Shown here: positions 23,871-58,067 of the stretch, in pieces
How positions within the stretch are numbered: the stretch's first letter is position 1
Layout of the letters: the number at the start of each line of letters is the position of its first letter
Source: Vulcanimicrobiota bacterium
GTDB lineage: Bacteria; Vulcanimicrobiota; Vulcanimicrobiia; Vulcanimicrobiales; Vulcanimicrobiaceae
NCBI GenBank assembly: GCA_027459645.1
Contig: DAIDHQ010000022.1
Location: 124,001-188,000 of the forward strand
Length of the DNA stretch: 64,000 nucleotides
Reading direction: 5' to 3'
Translations under genes and position numbers: made by a program
The notes under the pieces: model-generated
What the model was told of the DNA's origin: nothing
Databases searched by the model: none
The model's input: only the letters and a program-made list of their open reading frames with translations

Positions 23871-24789
23871 TCCAGTCATCTTCGCAGCCGGGCTCGCGAT
23901 TGCGCTGGTAGGGGCCGCGCCTGCGCCCATCAAGGTCGTCGATGCGATGCCCGCATTTTGGAAGGTGTACGACGCTGCCTATCCATCGTCGTATGCCCGT
24001 GCGGAGGCTTTTAAACGTGATGTCGTGCTGCCGAATCTCGAAGCGTTCATCAATGGCGAGTTCTCGTCGAATCTCCTCGACGATGCGACGATCGGGAGCT
24101 ATTTCGACGACCTTCGCCCCGACGCAGGCGCCGCGCGTGCGGTGAGCGCGCGGCTGAGCAAAGAGCTTCCCGCCGATATTGCGCGTTTTCAGGGAGCGCT
24201 TCCCGATTTTGATTCGTCGTCCATCTACGCGATCTACGTGATGCCGACGTTCTATCATTTTGCCGGGCAAACGCGCGATATGGGCGACAAGATTGGCGTC
24301 TTCTTCGGACCCGACGTTATCGCGAACGTCTATGGTGCCAACGCGAATGTCGGGGTCATCGTCGCTCACGAGCTCTTCCACATCTATCAGTACGAGACAT
24401 ACACGGGCTCACGAAATCGTTCGCGCCCCCTTTGGCTCCAGGTTTGGATCGAGGGATCGGCGGCATACGCAAGCGAGCATCTCACTCCCGGCGCCACGGC
24501 GTCCGACGCCCTCAATGCGACACTCGTTGCGTCGAACGCCGCAACACGCAAGCAATTCGCCTGCATTGTCGATCGCTCGTGGGATGCGACGAACGGCAGC
24601 GCTTCTTATCGACTTCTCGACGTATCGGCGCATCCGCAGGGACTGCCCTCAGAGGGCGGCTACCTGATCGGATATCTAGCGGCGCAGCAGCTTTCCAAGA
24701 CGATGTCGCTCGCGCAGATCGGAAAAGCGGACAACGACCCCCGCTTCGATGCGAAGTTGCATAGGATTATTTCCGGCATGTGCGGTTAG
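23815..24789 (+). CDS. Putative secreted zinc-protease-like protein with HExxH
   Basis: About 324 aa. The open frame begins far upstream, but coding character and a signal-peptide-like region (ISRATRNSFFGIFRTWRNP followed by the hydrophobic VIFAAGLAIALVGAAPAP) point to a start near TTG 23815, overlapping pirin by about 55 bp. No ATG or GTG is available nearby, so the start is uncertain. The core has VAHELFHIYQ with HELFH at 185-189, a zinc-metallopeptidase motif, and a later WIEGSAAY resembling a third-ligand Glu segment. I do not recognise a named family; it is similar in plan to DUF2268-type predicted proteases. Its 3' end overlaps the convergent permease by 4 bp. Confidence 0.65.
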   Translation: MISRATRNSFFGIFRTWRNPVIFAAGLAIALVGAAPAPIKVVDAMPAFWKVYDAAYPSSYARAEAFKRDVVLPNLEAFINGEFSSNLLDDATIGSYFDDLRPDAGAARAVSARLSKELPADIARFQGALPDFDSSSIYAIYVMPTFYHFAGQTRDMGDKIGVFFGPDVIANVYGANANVGVIVAHELFHIYQYETYTGSRNRSRPLWLQVWIEGSAAYASEHLTPGATASDALNATLVASNAATRKQFACIVDRSWDATNGSASYRLLDVSAHPQGLPSEGGYLIGYLAAQQLSKTMSLAQIGKADNDPRFDAKLHRIISGMCG

Positions 24790-25577
24790 CCGCCTTGAAT
24801 GACGACGCGGCGTGACGCCGCGCGCCACACGAACGTCGAGAGGGCTCCGAAGAGCGCGAGCCACAGAATCTGAACGGCAAAGTACGTCATCCACTGAGAC
24901 GCCGGTATGACGCCGACGTAGATCAGCAGCGGCGTCGAGTAGATCGCGGCAAAGGGAAGGCCGAAGACCAGTCGCCCGAAGATGCCGGGAAAGAAGGTCA
25001 GCGGGATGATCTGCCCGGAGAGCAAGTCCGAAACCCAGCGCACGATCAATTGCACGGCAAAGGTTTCGAGCGTCCAGAAGGCGATCGAGTTCATCAAGAA
25101 GTTCAAGAAGAAATTGACGCAGTAGCCGAGCAAAAACGAAAATGCAAAGGCTGCGAGCGTTGCGGGCGGCGGCACGTCGACGTGCACCATGAGCAGCGCA
25201 AACGCAAGCGACGGAACGACCAGCACCGCGTGCAGGAGCGTCTGTCCGACGCCGTCGGAAAAGAAGTACAGCGGAACGCTGATGGGTTTCATCAGGTCGG
25301 TGGCAATCGTTCCCTCACGTATCTTTTCCCGAATTAGCCGCGTGCCGTCGACTTCGAGGATGAGCGACATCAGGAGCGCTACCGTTGCATACGTGATCAT
25401 CGAATGCAGCGGCAGGTTCATCGGGGCCGCGTTTTGCGCGTAGAGCGCCGTCCATAACGCGCGCAAAAGATAGACGCGCAAGACGAGCGAGCCTACTTCG
25501 GTAAGGACCTCCATCCGGTAAGTTGCCTCGCGCGCAAACGCCTTCTTTGCAAACTCGAGATATGGTTCTGCTATCAA
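24786..25577 (-). CDS. ABC-2 type transporter permease (COG4587-like)
   Basis: A 263-aa membrane protein with about six hydrophobic segments and the internal motif REGTIATDLMKPIS, equivalent to the RPL motif of the paired permease. It is the natural partner of the ATPase at 26435-27442 and the other permease at 21415-22209. It lies downstream of the carbonic-anhydrase-like gene on the same strand but is separated from it by the 160-bp palindromic element, which the transcript would have to cross. The substrate is unknown; related systems export antibiotics or lipids. Confidence 0.87.
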   Translation of the reverse strand: MIAEPYLEFAKKAFAREATYRMEVLTEVGSLVLRVYLLRALWTALYAQNAAPMNLPLHSMITYATVALLMSLILEVDGTRLIREKIREGTIATDLMKPISVPLYFFSDGVGQTLLHAVLVVPSLAFALLMVHVDVPPPATLAAFAFSFLLGYCVNFFLNFLMNSIAFWTLETFAVQLIVRWVSDLLSGQIIPLTFFPGIFGRLVFGLPFAAIYSTPLLIYVGVIPASQWMTYFAVQILWLALFGALSTFVWRAASRRVVIQGG

Positions 25578-25623
25578 ACGTGCCCGGTCTTCCTCAGCGA
25601 GGGAATGAAGCCAACTTCAAAGC

Positions 25624-25783
25624 TGGTTATCATAGGGGCCTTCCGGCGGGAAGGCTCGAAGGTTTGCGCCATTCGCAGGAGGCGAACTTCCGTTGGTCGT
25701 GGCGCAAAACTCGCGCAGCAGGAGCGGCACACGATGTGCCGCGAGGAGCGTCTTCACGCCGGGAGGCCCCTATGATAACCAGC
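25624..25783. repeat. 160-bp palindromic multi-hairpin element (copy 1, intergenic)
   Basis: The ends 25624-25649 and 25758-25783 are inverted repeats matching at 25 of 26 positions. Inside, on the plus strand, I see CCTTCC..GGAAGG (25640-25655, able to compete with the outer stem), TTTGCGCCA (25664-25672) with TGGCGCAAA (25701-25709), TTCGC-AGGAG-GCGAA (25673-25687) and a perfect 8-bp stem GCGGCACA-CGA-TGTGCCGC (25725-25743). It fills most of the 207-bp gap between the carbonic-anhydrase-like gene and the permease. It shares motif order (AGGGGC, CAGGA-x-GGCGA, GCAGYAGGAGC-hairpin-GCGA, GGCCC) with the element in metH. It may be a palindromic mobile repeat or a structured RNA. Confidence 0.8.
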
Positions 25784-25784
25784 C

Positions 25785-26438
25785 CTAGCGTTTGGGTTTG
25801 TTCTTGAGCGCCTCACGCCGTCGCGCTTCCATCTCTTGTAACTCCAGCATCATGACGTCGACGACGGTATCGGCTTCCACCGGCGCTTTCAGTTCGTCGG
25901 TCTCGCGGCGGCGCGCTCCGGGCGCGACGTTTTCGTGCGCGTCGAGCTGCGCGTCGCGCGCGTGGGTTTTCCGCAAGAATGCGGCGTAATTTTGCGTCGC
26001 CTTCGAAACGGCGTCCGGGGCTTGCTCGACGTTATAGACGGCTTCGAAGAAGTCACCGGCGGGTTCTTTTACGGCGTTGGCCGGAACGCGCGCGTTGGAT
26101 TGGACCGTGACGCCGTTGTAGATGCGGGCGCCGCTGCCGACCGCGCAGCCCTTCTGCAGGGTGGCGCCCAGGACCAAGGCGCCCGGCCCGATCATGCACG
26201 CGTCGCCGACCTTCACGGGAAACTGCAGAGCGTTGCCGCCGCTCGCTTTAACGACGGCATGCTCCATCACGATGCAATTGCTGCCGATCGAAACGGGCGC
26301 GCCTTCCGCGGTAACGATCGCTCCGTGCAGGATCGCCGAACCGGCGCCGATCGTCACGTCGCCGCTGATGGTTGCCGTCGGGGCCACATACGCGGTGGAA
26401 TGAATTTTCGGCTTCTTGCCGCCGCTGCTAAGAATCAT
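25785..26438 (-). CDS. Gamma-carbonic-anhydrase-like left-handed beta-helix protein
   Basis: A 217-aa protein. Residues about 10-125 form hexapeptide repeats of a left-handed beta helix (VAPTATISGDVTIGAGSAILHG), as in gamma-class carbonic anhydrases. The three zinc His residues are not evident: only the His in MEHAVV stands at a plausible place, and the usual GHGA segment reads MIGPGA. Catalysis of CO2 hydration is therefore doubtful. The C-terminal 70 residues or so are charged and probably helical. It overlaps the ABC ATPase gene by 4 bp (ATGA), so the two are translationally coupled. Confidence 0.75.
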   Translation of the reverse strand: MILSSGGKKPKIHSTAYVAPTATISGDVTIGAGSAILHGAIVTAEGAPVSIGSNCIVMEHAVVKASGGNALQFPVKVGDACMIGPGALVLGATLQKGCAVGSGARIYNGVTVQSNARVPANAVKEPAGDFFEAVYNVEQAPDAVSKATQNYAAFLRKTHARDAQLDAHENVAPGARRRETDELKAPVEADTVVDVMMLELQEMEARRREALKNKPKR

Positions 26439-29325: not shown

Positions 29326-29637
29326 TTAAGCGGCTGCTTTCTTCCGGCGGCTGGTCTTGCGACGGGTCGTCTTGCGCGCAGACGCCTTGCGGGTCGTCTT
29401 GCGAGCTGCGGCCTTACGCGTGCTCTTGCGACGCGACGTCGCCTTCTTGCGGGTGGCCTTCTTGCGAGTCGCCTTCTTGCGTCCCGTGGCCTTCTTGCGT
29501 CCCGACGCTTTACGCGTAGCCTTCTTGCGACGCGTCGTCGCTTTACGGGTGGTCTTGCGGGCCGTTGCTTTACGCTTCGGGGCCGCTTTGCGAGCGGTGC
29601 GTTTCGCCGCCGCTTTCTTTGCACGTTTGACTGCCAT
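29326..29637 (-). CDS. Histone H1-like Lys/Arg/Ala-rich DNA-binding protein
   Basis: A 103-aa protein from ATG 29637, composed almost entirely of Lys, Arg, Ala, Thr and Ser in tandem KKATRKKA/RKTTRK-type repeats, with no acidic residues that I can see. It resembles the C-terminal tail of eukaryotic H1 and bacterial Hc1/Hc2/AlgP-type proteins, which bind DNA non-specifically and compact the nucleoid. The upstream open frame to 29781 is not protein-like. It has its own promoter, a palindromic leader and a strong terminator, suggesting a well-expressed single gene. Confidence 0.85.
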   Translation of the reverse strand: MAVKRAKKAAAKRTARKAAPKRKATARKTTRKATTRRKKATRKASGRKKATGRKKATRKKATRKKATSRRKSTRKAAARKTTRKASARKTTRRKTSRRKKAAA

Positions 29638-29658
29638 GTGCGTGGAGTCGTCCTTTCT

Positions 29659-29678
29659 CTGGTCACCGATGTGACCAG
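29659..29678 (-). promoter_or_regulatory. Perfect palindrome in the leader of the H1-like gene
   Basis: CTGGTCAC - CGAT - GTGACCAG gives 8-bp perfect arms around a 4-bp centre. It lies between the predicted promoter (29692-29720) and the start codon at 29637, so it could be a 5' UTR hairpin or an operator. The divergent hydrolase gene starts 36 bp away at 29715. Confidence 0.6.
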
Positions 29679-29691
29679 GGTTGTTGCCTCC

Positions 29692-29720
29692 CTTATACAG
29701 TATTACGAGCATCAATGCAA
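29692..29720 (-). promoter_or_regulatory. Predicted sigma-70-like promoter for the H1-like gene
   Basis: On the minus strand TTGCAT (29720-29715) and TATAAG (29697-29692) are separated by exactly 17 bp. The -10 box matches the consensus at 5 of 6 positions and the -35 at only 3 of 6. Transcription would begin near 29685, giving a leader of roughly 48 nt that includes the palindrome. Confidence 0.5.
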
Positions 29721-30518
29721 GTTTTGGTACACGACGACGTGCGCATCGACACGCGCATCGATGGTTCCGGTGACGATGCAATCGTCCTCATTCACGGTTT
29801 TCCGCTCGCGAAAGAGATATGGAGCGAGCAGATGCCGGCGCTCGCGAGATCGCATCGCGCGATCGCAATCGACTTGCGCGGCATGGGCGGTTCGAGCGTC
29901 GTCGACGGCCCGTACTTGATGGAAACGCTCGCCGGCGACGTCGCCGCGGTGATGGATCAGCTCAACGTGGAACGCGCGACGCTCGTCGGTCACTCGCTCG
30001 GCGGATATGTCGCGCTCGCGTTCGCGCGCATGTACGCCGAACGCGTCGCGCGACTCGCGCTCGTGTGCAGTCGCATCGCAGCCGACTCACCGGAGCGCGC
30101 GGCGCAACGCCGAGCGGCGGCGGACCGATTCGAACGCGACGATTCGCTCGGCGATATCGATGCAACGATAATAGCGATGGTTTCGGAAAAAACGCGACGC
30201 GGCGATCGAAAAACCCTTGAAAACATTGAAAAAATCGCTCGGCGTAACACGCCGCGCGGCCTGGCTTCGATGTTGCGCGGAATGGCGTTACGCGACGGTG
30301 CCGAGGATATCGCACCGGAGCTGGAGATGCCGGTTCTGGTCGTGGCGGGGGCGGCCGATCCGGTGGTCCCGGTGGCCGAGGCCGACGCGACGGCCGCCGC
30401 CTTTGCGCGGGGCCGGCTCGAGGTTTTGGAGGGGAGCGGTCACATCCCAATGGCCGAGACGCCCGCCTCCCTCACGGCTGTCTTGGTAAGCTTTACGAGC
30501 GGCCCCAGAGGCGCGTGA
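29715..30518 (+). CDS. Alpha/beta hydrolase
   Basis: A 267-aa protein with IHGFPLAKEIW (oxyanion region), DLRGMGGSS, nucleophile Ser94 in GHSLGG, probable acid Asp in GAADPVVPVAEA and catalytic His in GSGHIPMAE. It resembles the 3-oxoadipate enol-lactonase/haloperoxidase-like branch, but assignment to PcaD would be over-precise. It is divergent from the H1-like gene and overlaps the small membrane-protein gene by 26 bp at the 3' end. Confidence 0.83.
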   Translation: MQVLVHDDVRIDTRIDGSGDDAIVLIHGFPLAKEIWSEQMPALARSHRAIAIDLRGMGGSSVVDGPYLMETLAGDVAAVMDQLNVERATLVGHSLGGYVALAFARMYAERVARLALVCSRIAADSPERAAQRRAAADRFERDDSLGDIDATIIAMVSEKTRRGDRKTLENIEKIARRNTPRGLASMLRGMALRDGAEDIAPELEMPVLVVAGAADPVVPVAEADATAAAFARGRLEVLEGSGHIPMAETPASLTAVLVSFTSGPRGA

Positions 30519-54470: not shown

Positions 54471-57400
54471 TTGAGTAACTATTTGCACCTGCTGCAAGAG
54501 CGGGTTTTGATTTATGACGGCGCCATGGGCACACAGCTCATGGCGCTCGACTTATCTGCCGCCGATTTCGGCGGCGAGCGCTACCTGGGCTGCAACGAAG
54601 CCTTGGTCCTCACTCGTCCGGACGTCATCCGCGACATCCACGTCGCCTATTTACAAGCCGGCGCAGACGTCGTCGAAACCGATTCATTTACCGCATCGCG
54701 GCTGAAACTCGACGAATACGATCTGGGCGAAAAGACCTACGAGATCAATCGCCGTGCTGCGGAACTCGCGCGCGAAGCCTGCGACGCGCTCGCGACGCCG
54801 GATTGGCCTCGCTTCGTCGCCGGTTCGATGGGACCGACCGGCATGCTCGTCTCGTCTTCGGATCCGTCGCTCTCGAAGATCACCTTCGCGGAACTCGCCG
54901 ATATCTACGGCGAGCAGGCGCGCGCGCTCGTCGACGGCGGCGTCGACGTGCTGTTGCTCGAGACGATGCAAGATCTGCTCGAACTCAAGGCCGCGATTGC
55001 GGGGATCGTGCGCGAATTCGATCGCGGCATGCGCCGCGTACCGATTCAAGCGCAGCCGACCCTGATCACCGAAGGCCGCATGCTGCTCGGCACCGATATT
55101 CGCGCGATCGTCGCAACGCTCGATGCGCTGCCGGTCGACGTCATCGGCCTGAACTGCTCGACGGGCCCCTCGCAGATGCGCGACTCGGTGCGCTACCTCG
55201 GCGAAACCTCGCGCTGCTTCGTTAGCGTCATCCCGAACGCGGGGCTCCCGCTGATGGGGCCCAAAGGCGAAACGATCTATCCCGAAACGCCGGAAGAGCT
55301 CGCGCGCGAACTCGCCGATTTCGTCAAAGAATTTCGCGTCAACGTCGTGGGCGGCTGCTGCGGCTCGACGCCGGAACACATCTCGGCTCTCCGCGAATCC
55401 ATCGCGAAAGTTGCGCCAGAAAGCGGTGCGACTCGTGTGTCGGTTCGAGGGGCTCTGAACGAGCCGGGGAGCCAGGACGGCGAGAACGGCGAGGAAGGCA
55501 GTAGGAGCAATGCCATGGATGGCATTGCGACGAACGGCCCGAGAATCGATACACGAGCGCAACACGTTGCCTCAGCAATGACCGCCGTCGCTCTGGAACA
55601 AGAGCCGCGCCCGTTGCTCGTCGGCGAGCGCATCAACTCACAAGGCTCGCGCAAGATCAAGCGCCTGCTGCTGGCGGACGACTACGACGAGATCATGCTC
55701 GTCGCGCGCGAGCAAGTGGAAGGCGGCGCGCACGTGCTCGACGTGTGCTGCGCGCTTACCGAACGCACCGATGAAGACGTACAGATGCGCGAACTCGTGC
55801 GGCGTCTGGCGCAGTCGATCGAAGCGCCGCTCATGATCGATTCGACCGAGCCGCGCGTCATGCAGGTCGCACTCGAAAACTATCCGGGGCGTGCGATCCT
55901 CAACTCGGTGCACCTGGAAGCCGGGCGCGCCAAGATGGACGTCGTGCTGCCGCTCGCCAAAGAACATGGCGCCGCGGTCGTCGCGCTGACGATCGACGAA
56001 AGCGGCATGGCCAAGACCGCGCAGCGCAAGCTGGAAGTCGCGCGCCGCATCTACGATATCGTCGTCGGCGAATACGGATTGCCGCCGGGCGCGCTGATCT
56101 TCGACGACCTGACCTTCACGCTTGCAACCGGCGACGCCGAGTTTCTCACCTCGGCCGTGGAAACGATCGACGGCATCCGGCTGATCAAGCGCGAGCTTCC
56201 CGGCGTGCTCACGTCGCTCGGCGTCTCGAACGTCTCGTTCGGGTTGAAGCCGGCCGCGCGCGCCGCGCTGAACTCGGTCTTCCTGCATCACTGCGTGGAA
56301 GCGGGTTTGGATTTGGCGCTCGTGCACGCGAAAGAGATCACGCCTTATGCCGAGATCGATCCCGACGTGCGCGCATTGTGCGACGATCTCGTCTTCAATC
56401 GTCGCGCCGACGCGCTCGCGCGGTTCATCGAACATTTCGAAAGCGCGGCGGGAACCGCGCAAACGCAGAGCGACGCGGTCGACGAAGAAGCGGCGCTGCC
56501 GATCGAAGCGCAGATCCACAATGCGATCCTGCGCCGCCGCAAGGACGGAATCGAAGCGAAAATCGACGTCGCGCTGCAGGACCGTACGCCGGTCGCCGTA
56601 TTGAACGAAATCTTGCTTCCCGCGATGAAAGAAGTCGGCGATAAATTCGGCGCCGGCGAATTGATTCTGCCCTTCGTGCTGCAGTCCGCGGAAGTGATGA
56701 AGAAGGCCGTCGCGCACCTGGAGCAGTTTCTCGAACGTAAAGAAGGCGCGACGAAGGGCACGGTCGTGCTGGCGACGGTGTTCGGCGACGTGCACGACAT
56801 CGGCAAGAACCTGGTCAATACGATCTTGACCAATAACGGCTATACGGTTCACGATTTGGGCAAGCAAGTGCCGATGAACACCATCCTCGAGAAGGCCGTC
56901 GAGGTCGGCGCCGATGCGATCGGCCTTTCCGCGCTGTTGGTCTCGACCAGCAAACAAATGCCGATCTGCGTGCAAGAACAGGTTTCGCGCGGTTTGCAGT
57001 TCCCGGTCATCATCGGGGGCGCGGCGATCAATCGTGATTTCGGCCGGCGCATCGCCCTAGTCGACGACGGCGAGCGTTTCTTCGAGCCGGGACTCTTTTA
57101 TGCCAAAGATGCCTTCGAAGGCTTAGATATCATGGATCGCCTCACGTCCGAGCCGCAGGACCGTGAAGCGTTCCTCGAGCGCATCCGCAGCGAAGCCATC
57201 GCGCAGCGCGATCGCGCGCGCAACGCGGTGCCGCGTGCGGTGAGCGAGCCTTCGATCTCGGCGGTCAAGAGCGAGCACGTCGATATCCCGCAGCCGCCGT
57301 TCTGGGGCGCGACGACGCTCGATGCGGTCGACGTCGAGGAACTCTGGCCGTGTTACGACCTGCGCAGTCTCTACCGGTTGTCGTGGGGCGCGAGCAACAC

Positions 57401-58067
57401 CAAAGGCGACGCCTTTGAAGCCCTCGTGCGCGACGAATTCCAGCCGCGTCTGCAGCGCTATCAACGGGAAGCGGCGGCGGGCGGATTGCTCTATCCGAAG
57501 GTCGCGTACGGATACTTTCCGGCGGCCGGTGCCGGTGACGACGTCATCGTGTACGATCCGCAAAACCCGGTGAAGGAGATTGCGCGCTTTCCATTCACGC
57601 GACAGATCGGCGGCGAGCATCTTTGCCTGGCCGATTATCTGCGCGAACCGCAAGACGGCAGAGGCATCGACGTGATCGCCCTGCAGGTGGTGACGATCGG
57701 AACCGCCGCGGCCGAACGAACCGAAGCGCTGCAAGCACAGGGCGATTACAGCGAATCGTATTTCTTGCACGGTTTCACGGTGCAAGCCGCCGAGGCGCTC
57801 GCGGAATGGACGCACCGGCGCATCCGTACCGAATTGCGCTTGGACGCGGAACGCGGGAAGCGGTATTCGTGGGGATACGGCGCCTGCCCCGACCTCTCGC
57901 AACATGCAATCGCGTTCCGATTGCTCGATGCCGAAAAGCGCATCGGCGTGGCGCTGACCGAAGCCTTCCAAATCGTGCCCGAGCAATCGACGGCCGCGAT
58001 CGTCATGCATCATCCTCGCGCGTCCTACTTTAATGCCGCCGCCGTGCGGGAATTGGTGTCTTCCTAG
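54471..58067 (+). CDS. metH: Cobalamin-dependent methionine synthase MetH
   Basis: A 1198-aa protein starting at TTG 54471, directly after the asparaginase stop. Domain order is complete. Homocysteine domain (1 to about 320; zinc Cys in GLNCSTG and GGCCGS). Pterin domain (about 375-640; GERINSQG). Cobalamin domain (about 670-890; His775 in GDVHDIGK coordinates B12). AdoMet reactivation domain (about 920-1198). It methylates homocysteine using methyl-tetrahydrofolate. The linker after the first domain (residues about 321-363, NEPGSQDGENGEE) is encoded by an in-frame palindromic insertion. No B12 riboswitch is seen. Confidence 0.96.
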   Translation: MSNYLHLLQERVLIYDGAMGTQLMALDLSAADFGGERYLGCNEALVLTRPDVIRDIHVAYLQAGADVVETDSFTASRLKLDEYDLGEKTYEINRRAAELAREACDALATPDWPRFVAGSMGPTGMLVSSSDPSLSKITFAELADIYGEQARALVDGGVDVLLLETMQDLLELKAAIAGIVREFDRGMRRVPIQAQPTLITEGRMLLGTDIRAIVATLDALPVDVIGLNCSTGPSQMRDSVRYLGETSRCFVSVIPNAGLPLMGPKGETIYPETPEELARELADFVKEFRVNVVGGCCGSTPEHISALRESIAKVAPESGATRVSVRGALNEPGSQDGENGEEGSRSNAMDGIATNGPRIDTRAQHVASAMTAVALEQEPRPLLVGERINSQGSRKIKRLLLADDYDEIMLVAREQVEGGAHVLDVCCALTERTDEDVQMRELVRRLAQSIEAPLMIDSTEPRVMQVALENYPGRAILNSVHLEAGRAKMDVVLPLAKEHGAAVVALTIDESGMAKTAQRKLEVARRIYDIVVGEYGLPPGALIFDDLTFTLATGDAEFLTSAVETIDGIRLIKRELPGVLTSLGVSNVSFGLKPAARAALNSVFLHHCVEAGLDLALVHAKEITPYAEIDPDVRALCDDLVFNRRADALARFIEHFESAAGTAQTQSDAVDEEAALPIEAQIHNAILRRRKDGIEAKIDVALQDRTPVAVLNEILLPAMKEVGDKFGAGELILPFVLQSAEVMKKAVAHLEQFLERKEGATKGTVVLATVFGDVHDIGKNLVNTILTNNGYTVHDLGKQVPMNTILEKAVEVGADAIGLSALLVSTSKQMPICVQEQVSRGLQFPVIIGGAAINRDFGRRIALVDDGERFFEPGLFYAKDAFEGLDIMDRLTSEPQDREAFLERIRSEAIAQRDRARNAVPRAVSEPSISAVKSEHVDIPQPPFWGATTLDAVDVEELWPCYDLRSLYRLSWGASNTKGDAFEALVRDEFQPRLQRYQREAAAGGLLYPKVAYGYFPAAGAGDDVIVYDPQNPVKEIARFPFTRQIGGEHLCLADYLREPQDGRGIDVIALQVVTIGTAAAERTEALQAQGDYSESYFLHGFTVQAAEALAEWTHRRIRTELRLDAERGKRYSWGYGACPDLSQHAIAFRLLDAEKRIGVALTEAFQIVPEQSTAAIVMHHPRASYFNAAAVRELVSS
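55432..55557 (+). repeat. 126-bp palindromic element inserted in frame in metH (copy 2)
   Basis: The ends CTCGTGTGTCGGTTC (55432-55446) and GAATCGATACACGAG (55543-55557) pair over 15 bp, 13 Watson-Crick plus two that are G-U only in plus-strand RNA. Inside are GGCTC-TGAAC-GAGCC, CAGGACGGCGA, GCAGTAGGAGC and a perfect 10-bp stem GCAATGCCAT-GG-ATGGCATTGC (55507-55528). The length is 42 codons exactly and it encodes a polar linker. The motif order equals that of the element at 25624-25783. Confidence 0.78.

Follow-up and report, generated by a model that had tools for sequence, protein, structure and literature searches.

Between the genes of an ABC-2 permease and a hexapeptide-repeat (gamma-carbonic-anhydrase-like) protein, the 64,000-nucleotide stretch of Vulcanimicrobiota DNA analyzed here (the window) carries a palindrome with several internal hairpins. 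A first-pass annotation likened its plan to that of an element inside metH and took the two for either a structured RNA family or a palindromic mobile repeat. What is this palindrome, how does it spread and change, and which of its strands folds? We consider it probable that both copies belong to a new family of protein-less palindromic mobile elements of about 160–190 bp, RPE- and MITE-like, found in one class of Vulcanimicrobiota (Eremiobacterota).

The Window Palindrome and the metH Element Are Two Subtypes of One Plan

The outer arms of the window element are 32 nt long, 94% complementary, and 98 nt apart, and the fold of positions 25610–25800 gives z = −8.1 against dinucleotide shuffles; the annotated multi-hairpin palindrome is therefore real. 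The element is antisense to both flanking genes, and the end of its outer arm adjoins the stop codon of the hexapeptide-repeat gene. The element in metH folds comparably (z = −7.4 versus dinucleotide shuffles). Its parts and those of the window element are given in Table 1.

Across copies the order of parts is the outer stem P1, a linker, P2, the linker GAGGAAGGCAGTAGGA, the P3 hairpin, GACGAACG or GAGGAGCG, and P1'. P1 comprises 25–40 bp with a sequence specific to each locus, whereas the purine-rich linkers are conserved; with its arms the unit measures about 160–190 bp and holds no protein gene. The motif order read in the first pass was right: the pattern CAGNAGGAGC-hairpin-GCGANGANCG has 16 matches in the window's own genome and none when reversed as a control. 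There are two main subtypes. In type A the linker from P1 to P2 is CTCTGA-C, and P2 is short, with a GGA/GAGA internal loop and a GCC-AGGAT-GGC apical hairpin. In type B, P2 is a long T/A-rich stem with a CGAC-AGGAT-GTCG tip and a CUUCC bulge. In most copies the P3 loop is CAGGATG.

Two covariance models were built, R1 from ten type A copies and R2 from three type B copies of the window's own genome. The models detect each other's subtype: the window copy is among the hits of R1 (E = 1.5e-4), and R2 recovers type A copies with E-values as low as 1.7e-6. The proposed likeness to the metH element thus holds at the level of the family but not of the subtype; judged by these matches, the window copy (type B) and the metH copy (type A) are different subtypes of one family.

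Table 1. Positions of the elements, their parts, and associated features (window coordinates unless a locus is named)
Feature	Position	Strand	Details
Type B palindromic element, whole	25622–25783	+	162 nt; R2 match 25639–25766
ABC-2 permease gene, flanking	24786–25577	−	
Hexapeptide-repeat gene, flanking	25785–26438	−	
P1 outer stem, 5' arm	25622–25653	+	pairs with 25752–25783
P2 stem, 5' strand TTTGCGCCA	25663–25671	+	pairs with 25700–25708
P2 apical hairpin TTCGC-AGGAG-GCGAA	25672–25686	+	AGGAG loop of A(N)GGAX type
Conserved CUUCC bulge	25687–25691	+	3' side of P2
P2 stem, 3' strand TGGCGCAAA	25700–25708	+	pairs with 25663–25671
Conserved linker GCAGCAGGA	25715–25723	+	GCAGTAGGA in many copies
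P3 hairpin GCGGCACA-CGA-TGTGCCGC	25724–25742	+	loop without GGA in this copy
Conserved linker GAGGAGCG	25743–25750	+	
P1 outer stem, 3' arm	25752–25783	+	pairs with 25622–25653
metH ORF	54471–58067	+	1198 aa; continuous in frame through the element
Type A element inside metH	55432–55557	+	R1 match 55439–55550; outer arms 55432–55446 and 55543–55557
Type A P2	55463–55490	+	GCCG/CGGC stem, GGA/GAGA internal loop, GCC-AGGAC-GGC apical hairpin
Type A linker GCAGTAGGA, P3 hairpin, GACGAACG	55498–55537	+	P3 at 55507–55528, loop TGGA, A-T closing
Inverted pairs, other contigs	L083 252/486; L084 2946/3173; L092 2148/2506; L030 1501/1720; L174 2238/2454; G014:C130 10880/11106		

Elsewhere in the window, the ORF at 29326–29781 on the minus strand encodes a histone H1-like protein very rich in lysine, arginine, and alanine (AAKRTARKAAPKRKATARKTTRK...).

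The Family Is Dispersed through One Class of the Phylum

In the window's own genome, R1 gave 36 matches at E ≤ 1, about 30 of them convincing type A copies, and R2 gave 11, of which 8 are clearly type B. Among 60 relatives, 32 have R1 matches. Across the phylum, 81 of 149 genomes do, and 78 of these belong to the window's class (~117 genomes). Type B copies were found with R2 in 14 of the 60 relatives, with 27 copies in G007, 10 in G031, and 8 in G014. Exact copies of the 20-mer GGAGCCAGGATGGCGAGAGC were found in 22 stretches among 84,980 species genomes, titled mostly Candidatus Eremiobacterota, some "bacterium," and one a Kuenenia bin. The contig labelled Candidatus Kuenenia (L178), which holds a type A match, is probably misbinned. 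No Rfam 15 family matched the elements at gathering score or low E-value, and our literature search combining Eremiobacterota with structured RNA or palindromic repeats turned up no account of elements like these. The 20-mer has no occurrence in IMG/VR, and a phage or plasmid origin was rejected, as no phage or plasmid match was found. The family is far larger and older than the Rickettsia palindromes and belongs to a barely cultured soil phylum.

At infB-rbfA, L231 (G029) and L227 (G031) hold variants missed by R1, with an equal plan but other stems; their hairpins are tipped by CATGGATG or CAGGATG, and L231 has an AGTAG linker. Since their stems differ, further subtypes must exist. Near-identical copies sit exactly at contig ends in G037 (C6, C21, C50, and C76), a sign of recent spread that broke the assembly. 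One type A copy (L030, 1501–1656, minus strand) carries an extra hairpin of ~45 nt at the P2 tip.

Stems Change in Pairs while Linkers and Loops Persist

Many copies with compensating stem changes, which the first-pass annotation had named as support for a family, were found with both models. In alignments fitted to the models, and hence favoring the structure, 79 distinct type A copies show 347 double-changed cells versus 118 in shuffles, and 43 type B copies show 523 versus 180; the signal disappears in both types when partner columns are shifted by 1–3. In type B, 36 of 45 pairs are double-changed (94.5% paired); in the P2 helix the double-changed pairs number 13 of 15. In the inner stems both bases of a pair change together and G.U intermediates are very rare, and adjacent stems turn over while the unpaired linkers and the loop GGA stay conserved.

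An H-type pseudoknot of type A (GGCTC/GAGCC with P2), suggested by ten copies, was dropped: in the wider set its GCC/GGC is a nested apical hairpin. In type B, the P2 bulge UUCCU could pair with the linker AGGAA as a candidate pseudoknot; both sides are changed in L345 and L346 (G027), and several copies break the pairing.

Elements Come and Go at Orthologous Sites, between and within Genes

Copies lie between genes, including within essential operons, and in frame inside genes. By heuristic gene calls, the 106 type A copies comprise 25 between convergent genes, 47 in tandem settings (32 antisense and 15 sense), 6 between divergent genes, 12 in long ORFs, and 16 in unclear settings. Several sites recur (gene names infB, rbfA, atpG, atpD, queD, queE, and rho are read from translated sequence rather than from a family search): infB-rbfA and atpG-atpD in several genera, with rho also repeated. 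The infB-rbfA junction is filled in nine genomes, mostly antisense (G000, the window genome, and G034, G105, G036, G007, G088, G009, G011, and G033), and is empty in G104, G001, G026, G075, and G098, where the stop and start codons overlap or the spacer is short. At queD-queE, G070 is filled and G071, G086, G085, and G073 are empty. Over infB-rbfA, atpG-atpD, queD-queE, rho, and metH together, copies have been gained, lost, and inverted. The sites common to distant genera, infB-rbfA and atpG-atpD, could alternatively reflect vertical inheritance with loss.

Such recurrence is what would be expected of cis-acting mRNA elements (terminators, stabilizers, or attenuators) kept at given genes. We regard this as quite unlikely, because the orientation flips at a single site, the element is missing from that site in most relatives, and the contexts of the copies are unrelated.

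Insertions into protein-coding genes that keep the frame were seen in metH, in two genera, and in a DnaE-type polymerase, where the copy lies between the NTPase and finger domains. The metH element falls between the homocysteine-binding (13–310) and pterin-binding (385–619) domains and lengthens the linker by ~31–39 aa. In the window genome it is sense and in frame, in G114 antisense and in frame; the metH of G019, a congener of G114, has no element. The peptide of the sense frame is conserved and hydrophilic (ALNEPxxQDxxxGEEGS).

Comparison of empty and filled sites (metH, infB-rbfA, and queD-queE) revealed neither a clear target-site duplication nor precise ends; the ends are locus-specific. 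The neighborhoods of the copies share no recurring transposase or other partner gene, only syntenic operon neighbors. Both points weigh against a mobile element.

Arms and Cores Are Remodeled, Probably after Insertion

Between near-identical flanks the core is found in opposite orientations (L204/L219 and L051/L054). The outer arms, moreover, can contain inverted host sequence. In G070, the left (far) arm at queD-queE carries CAGCTAGTTGAAGCAT, the exact reverse complement, across the element, of the native queE start ATGCTTCAACTAGCTG, which is present in relatives without the element, with a close match in G071 and G086. The end of rho is likewise mirrored in an outer arm in L283 and L266 (G071 and G074). 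As host-flank copies occur in both polarities, they are most simply explained by replication template switching once the element is in place. The capture is partial: a purely host-derived origin of the arms was rejected, since recent copies in G037–G039 and in the genus of G070 have a common arm sequence. A recX-recA site in G071 was discarded, its apparent palindrome spanning a scaffold gap (NN).

Template switching during replication is known to homogenize arms and invert spacers (PMC8604942). As it also yields paired stem changes, covariation here is by itself no proof of RNA, and is partly confounded. The elements might even be functionless DNA palindromes whose stems match solely through template switching and whose loops are alike by common descent. 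Homogenized arms, their extension into host DNA, and inverted cores all agree with what template switching would produce (PMC8604942), as do inner stems that change pairwise almost without G.U intermediates. Even so, we judge this explanation improbable, because template switching is blind to strand, whereas the G.U:A.C ratio in the outer stem is about 4:1; the conserved unpaired linkers and loop GGA beside stems that turn over also speak against it.

One Strand of the Outer Stem Is Preferred

A G.T mismatch on one strand of a palindrome is an A.C mismatch on the other, and in a neutral palindrome both are equally frequent. In type A outer arms we counted 132 G.U against 33 A.C (p = 3e-15; 66 copies against 7); type B arms gave 34 against 6. 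The asymmetry persists in a recount on the flanks alone, which excludes the conserved G.U pair at the P1 base as its source. Sense (33:3), antisense (55:19), and convergently flanked (31:5) type A copies are biased alike, which makes the bias a property of the element and not of host transcription. We conclude that one strand is the folded, selected strand. This strand-specific selection is seen in the outer stem only: the inner stems have no excess of G.U over A.C (7 versus 10). Both halves of the original proposal, a structured family or a mobile palindrome, thus hold together, with a conserved structure, gain and loss at orthologous sites, and one selected folding strand. The plus strand would fold as RNA or single-stranded DNA, and the near-neutrality of G.U favors RNA.

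For the mobile palindrome that we prefer, a life cycle can be proposed. As single-stranded RNA or DNA, the plus strand would form a long rod that closes off a pair of GGA-capped hairpins, and a trans-acting enzyme may recognize this shape in the course of movement. Once a copy has inserted, its long inverted arms would provoke template switching at replication, which could homogenize the arms, so that each copy's stem is unique but matched, extend the palindrome into the neighboring gene, and flip the core. The products of such reshaping are seen directly in the arms and cores described above, while recognition by an enzyme is inferred. The cycle is open to test, because >100 genomes offer sites with and without the element, inverted copies, and in-frame copies for comparison. 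Arm homogenization, spacer inversion, and capture of neighboring genes are also routes by which a repeat can rewrite gene ends. For RNA discovery there is a warning: DNA-level events can create covariation in bacterial palindromes, and the G.U versus A.C test separates the two.

GGA Loops and CsrA

The first-pass annotation had mentioned CsrA-type sites as a weaker idea, and the loops make it stronger than was thought. The site defined for CsrA/RsmE is an A(N)GGAX loop that directly caps a stem (PMC4005645), and the loops of the elements fit this description. Of 125 type A copies, 99 have GGA in the P2 loop (parser misses included), as do, by inspection, all 43 type B copies; the commonest loops are CAGGATG, CATGGATG, and CACGGATG. 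Each transcribed copy could then be a CsrB/RsmZ-like decoy, a small dispersed RNA that captures a CsrA dimer with its pair of A(N)GGAX hairpins and its GGA linkers. The window's own genome encodes CsrA, as do 101 of the 149 genomes of the phylum, and elements and CsrA co-occur class-wide (p = 0.0015). This co-occurrence is explained in part by phylogeny: within the window's family it does not reach significance (p = 0.12 or 0.78), and G010 and G098 carry copies yet have no CsrA match. P3, moreover, often lacks GGA: its loop is ACGAT in 18 of 125 type A copies, a minimum for that subtype, and GGA is missing from about 11 of 43 type B copies, the window copy included. Copies in tandem settings are more often antisense to the operon than sense (32 versus 15). 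The idea is not proven, and we hold a decoy function to be doubtful, if worth keeping in mind.

CsrB and RsmZ likewise combine stem-loops bearing A(N)GGAX loops with GGA in single-stranded linkers, but they are encoded by one or few genes, whereas tens of copies per genome are dispersed here and often lack GGA in one of the two loops. If the loops function, the family may link mobile DNA to a global regulator. In a further variant, a folded transcript or ssDNA would be spread by a borrowed enzyme as a protein-less, SINE-like mobile RNA whose GGA hairpins bind CsrA, making the copies portable, self-multiplying docking RNAs; we think this unlikely.

Relation to Known Palindromic Repeats

The placement of the elements recalls REP sequences, which in Pseudomonas are moved by the Y1 HUH transposase RAYT: the elements lie downstream of genes, and of 90 classified copies just 6 are at divergent promoters (compare PMC3733652). 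The linker and hairpin of the elements, GTAGGAGC-stem-GCGA, resemble GTAG-tagged REPs. REP/REPIN systems share the dispersed palindromes 3' of genes and, for many of the copies here, a GTAG or CGTC near the P3 hairpin, and CGTC-tagged REPs are also without a dedicated transposase. But GTAG is not constant here and is often GCAG, and the unit is compound and much larger, 160–190 bp instead of 20–40. No Y1_Tnp match (RAYT, PF01797) was found in the window's own genome, almost all carriers in its family and order lack one too, and the Y1 genes that do exist have no element nearby, which excludes RAYT as a resident partner. Movement by RAYT is thereby largely refuted for these elements and seems to us very improbable.

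Back-to-back inverted pairs of elements, ~100–360 bp apart and sometimes combining type A with type B, are frequent (Table 1) and resemble REPIN/BIME dimers.

With MITEs the elements share short, non-coding, inverted-repeat sequences at high copy number that are polymorphic for presence, but they differ in having no conserved terminal inverted repeats and no target duplication that we could see. By their features they appear to work most like Rickettsia palindromic elements, a likeness that implies no membership. Protein-coding palindromes have been reported as a distinctive feature of Rickettsia (PMC10969869). Both are palindromic repeats of ~100–150 bp (here ~160–190 bp with the arms) in many copies, intergenic and in frame in unrelated genes, with a conserved hydrophilic sense-frame peptide and no known transposase. 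The present elements differ in coming from another phylum and in their longer, locus-specific outer stems and two-hairpin junction with A(N)GGAX loops; they also invert, take up flanking host sequence, and can be read in frame whichever way they lie.
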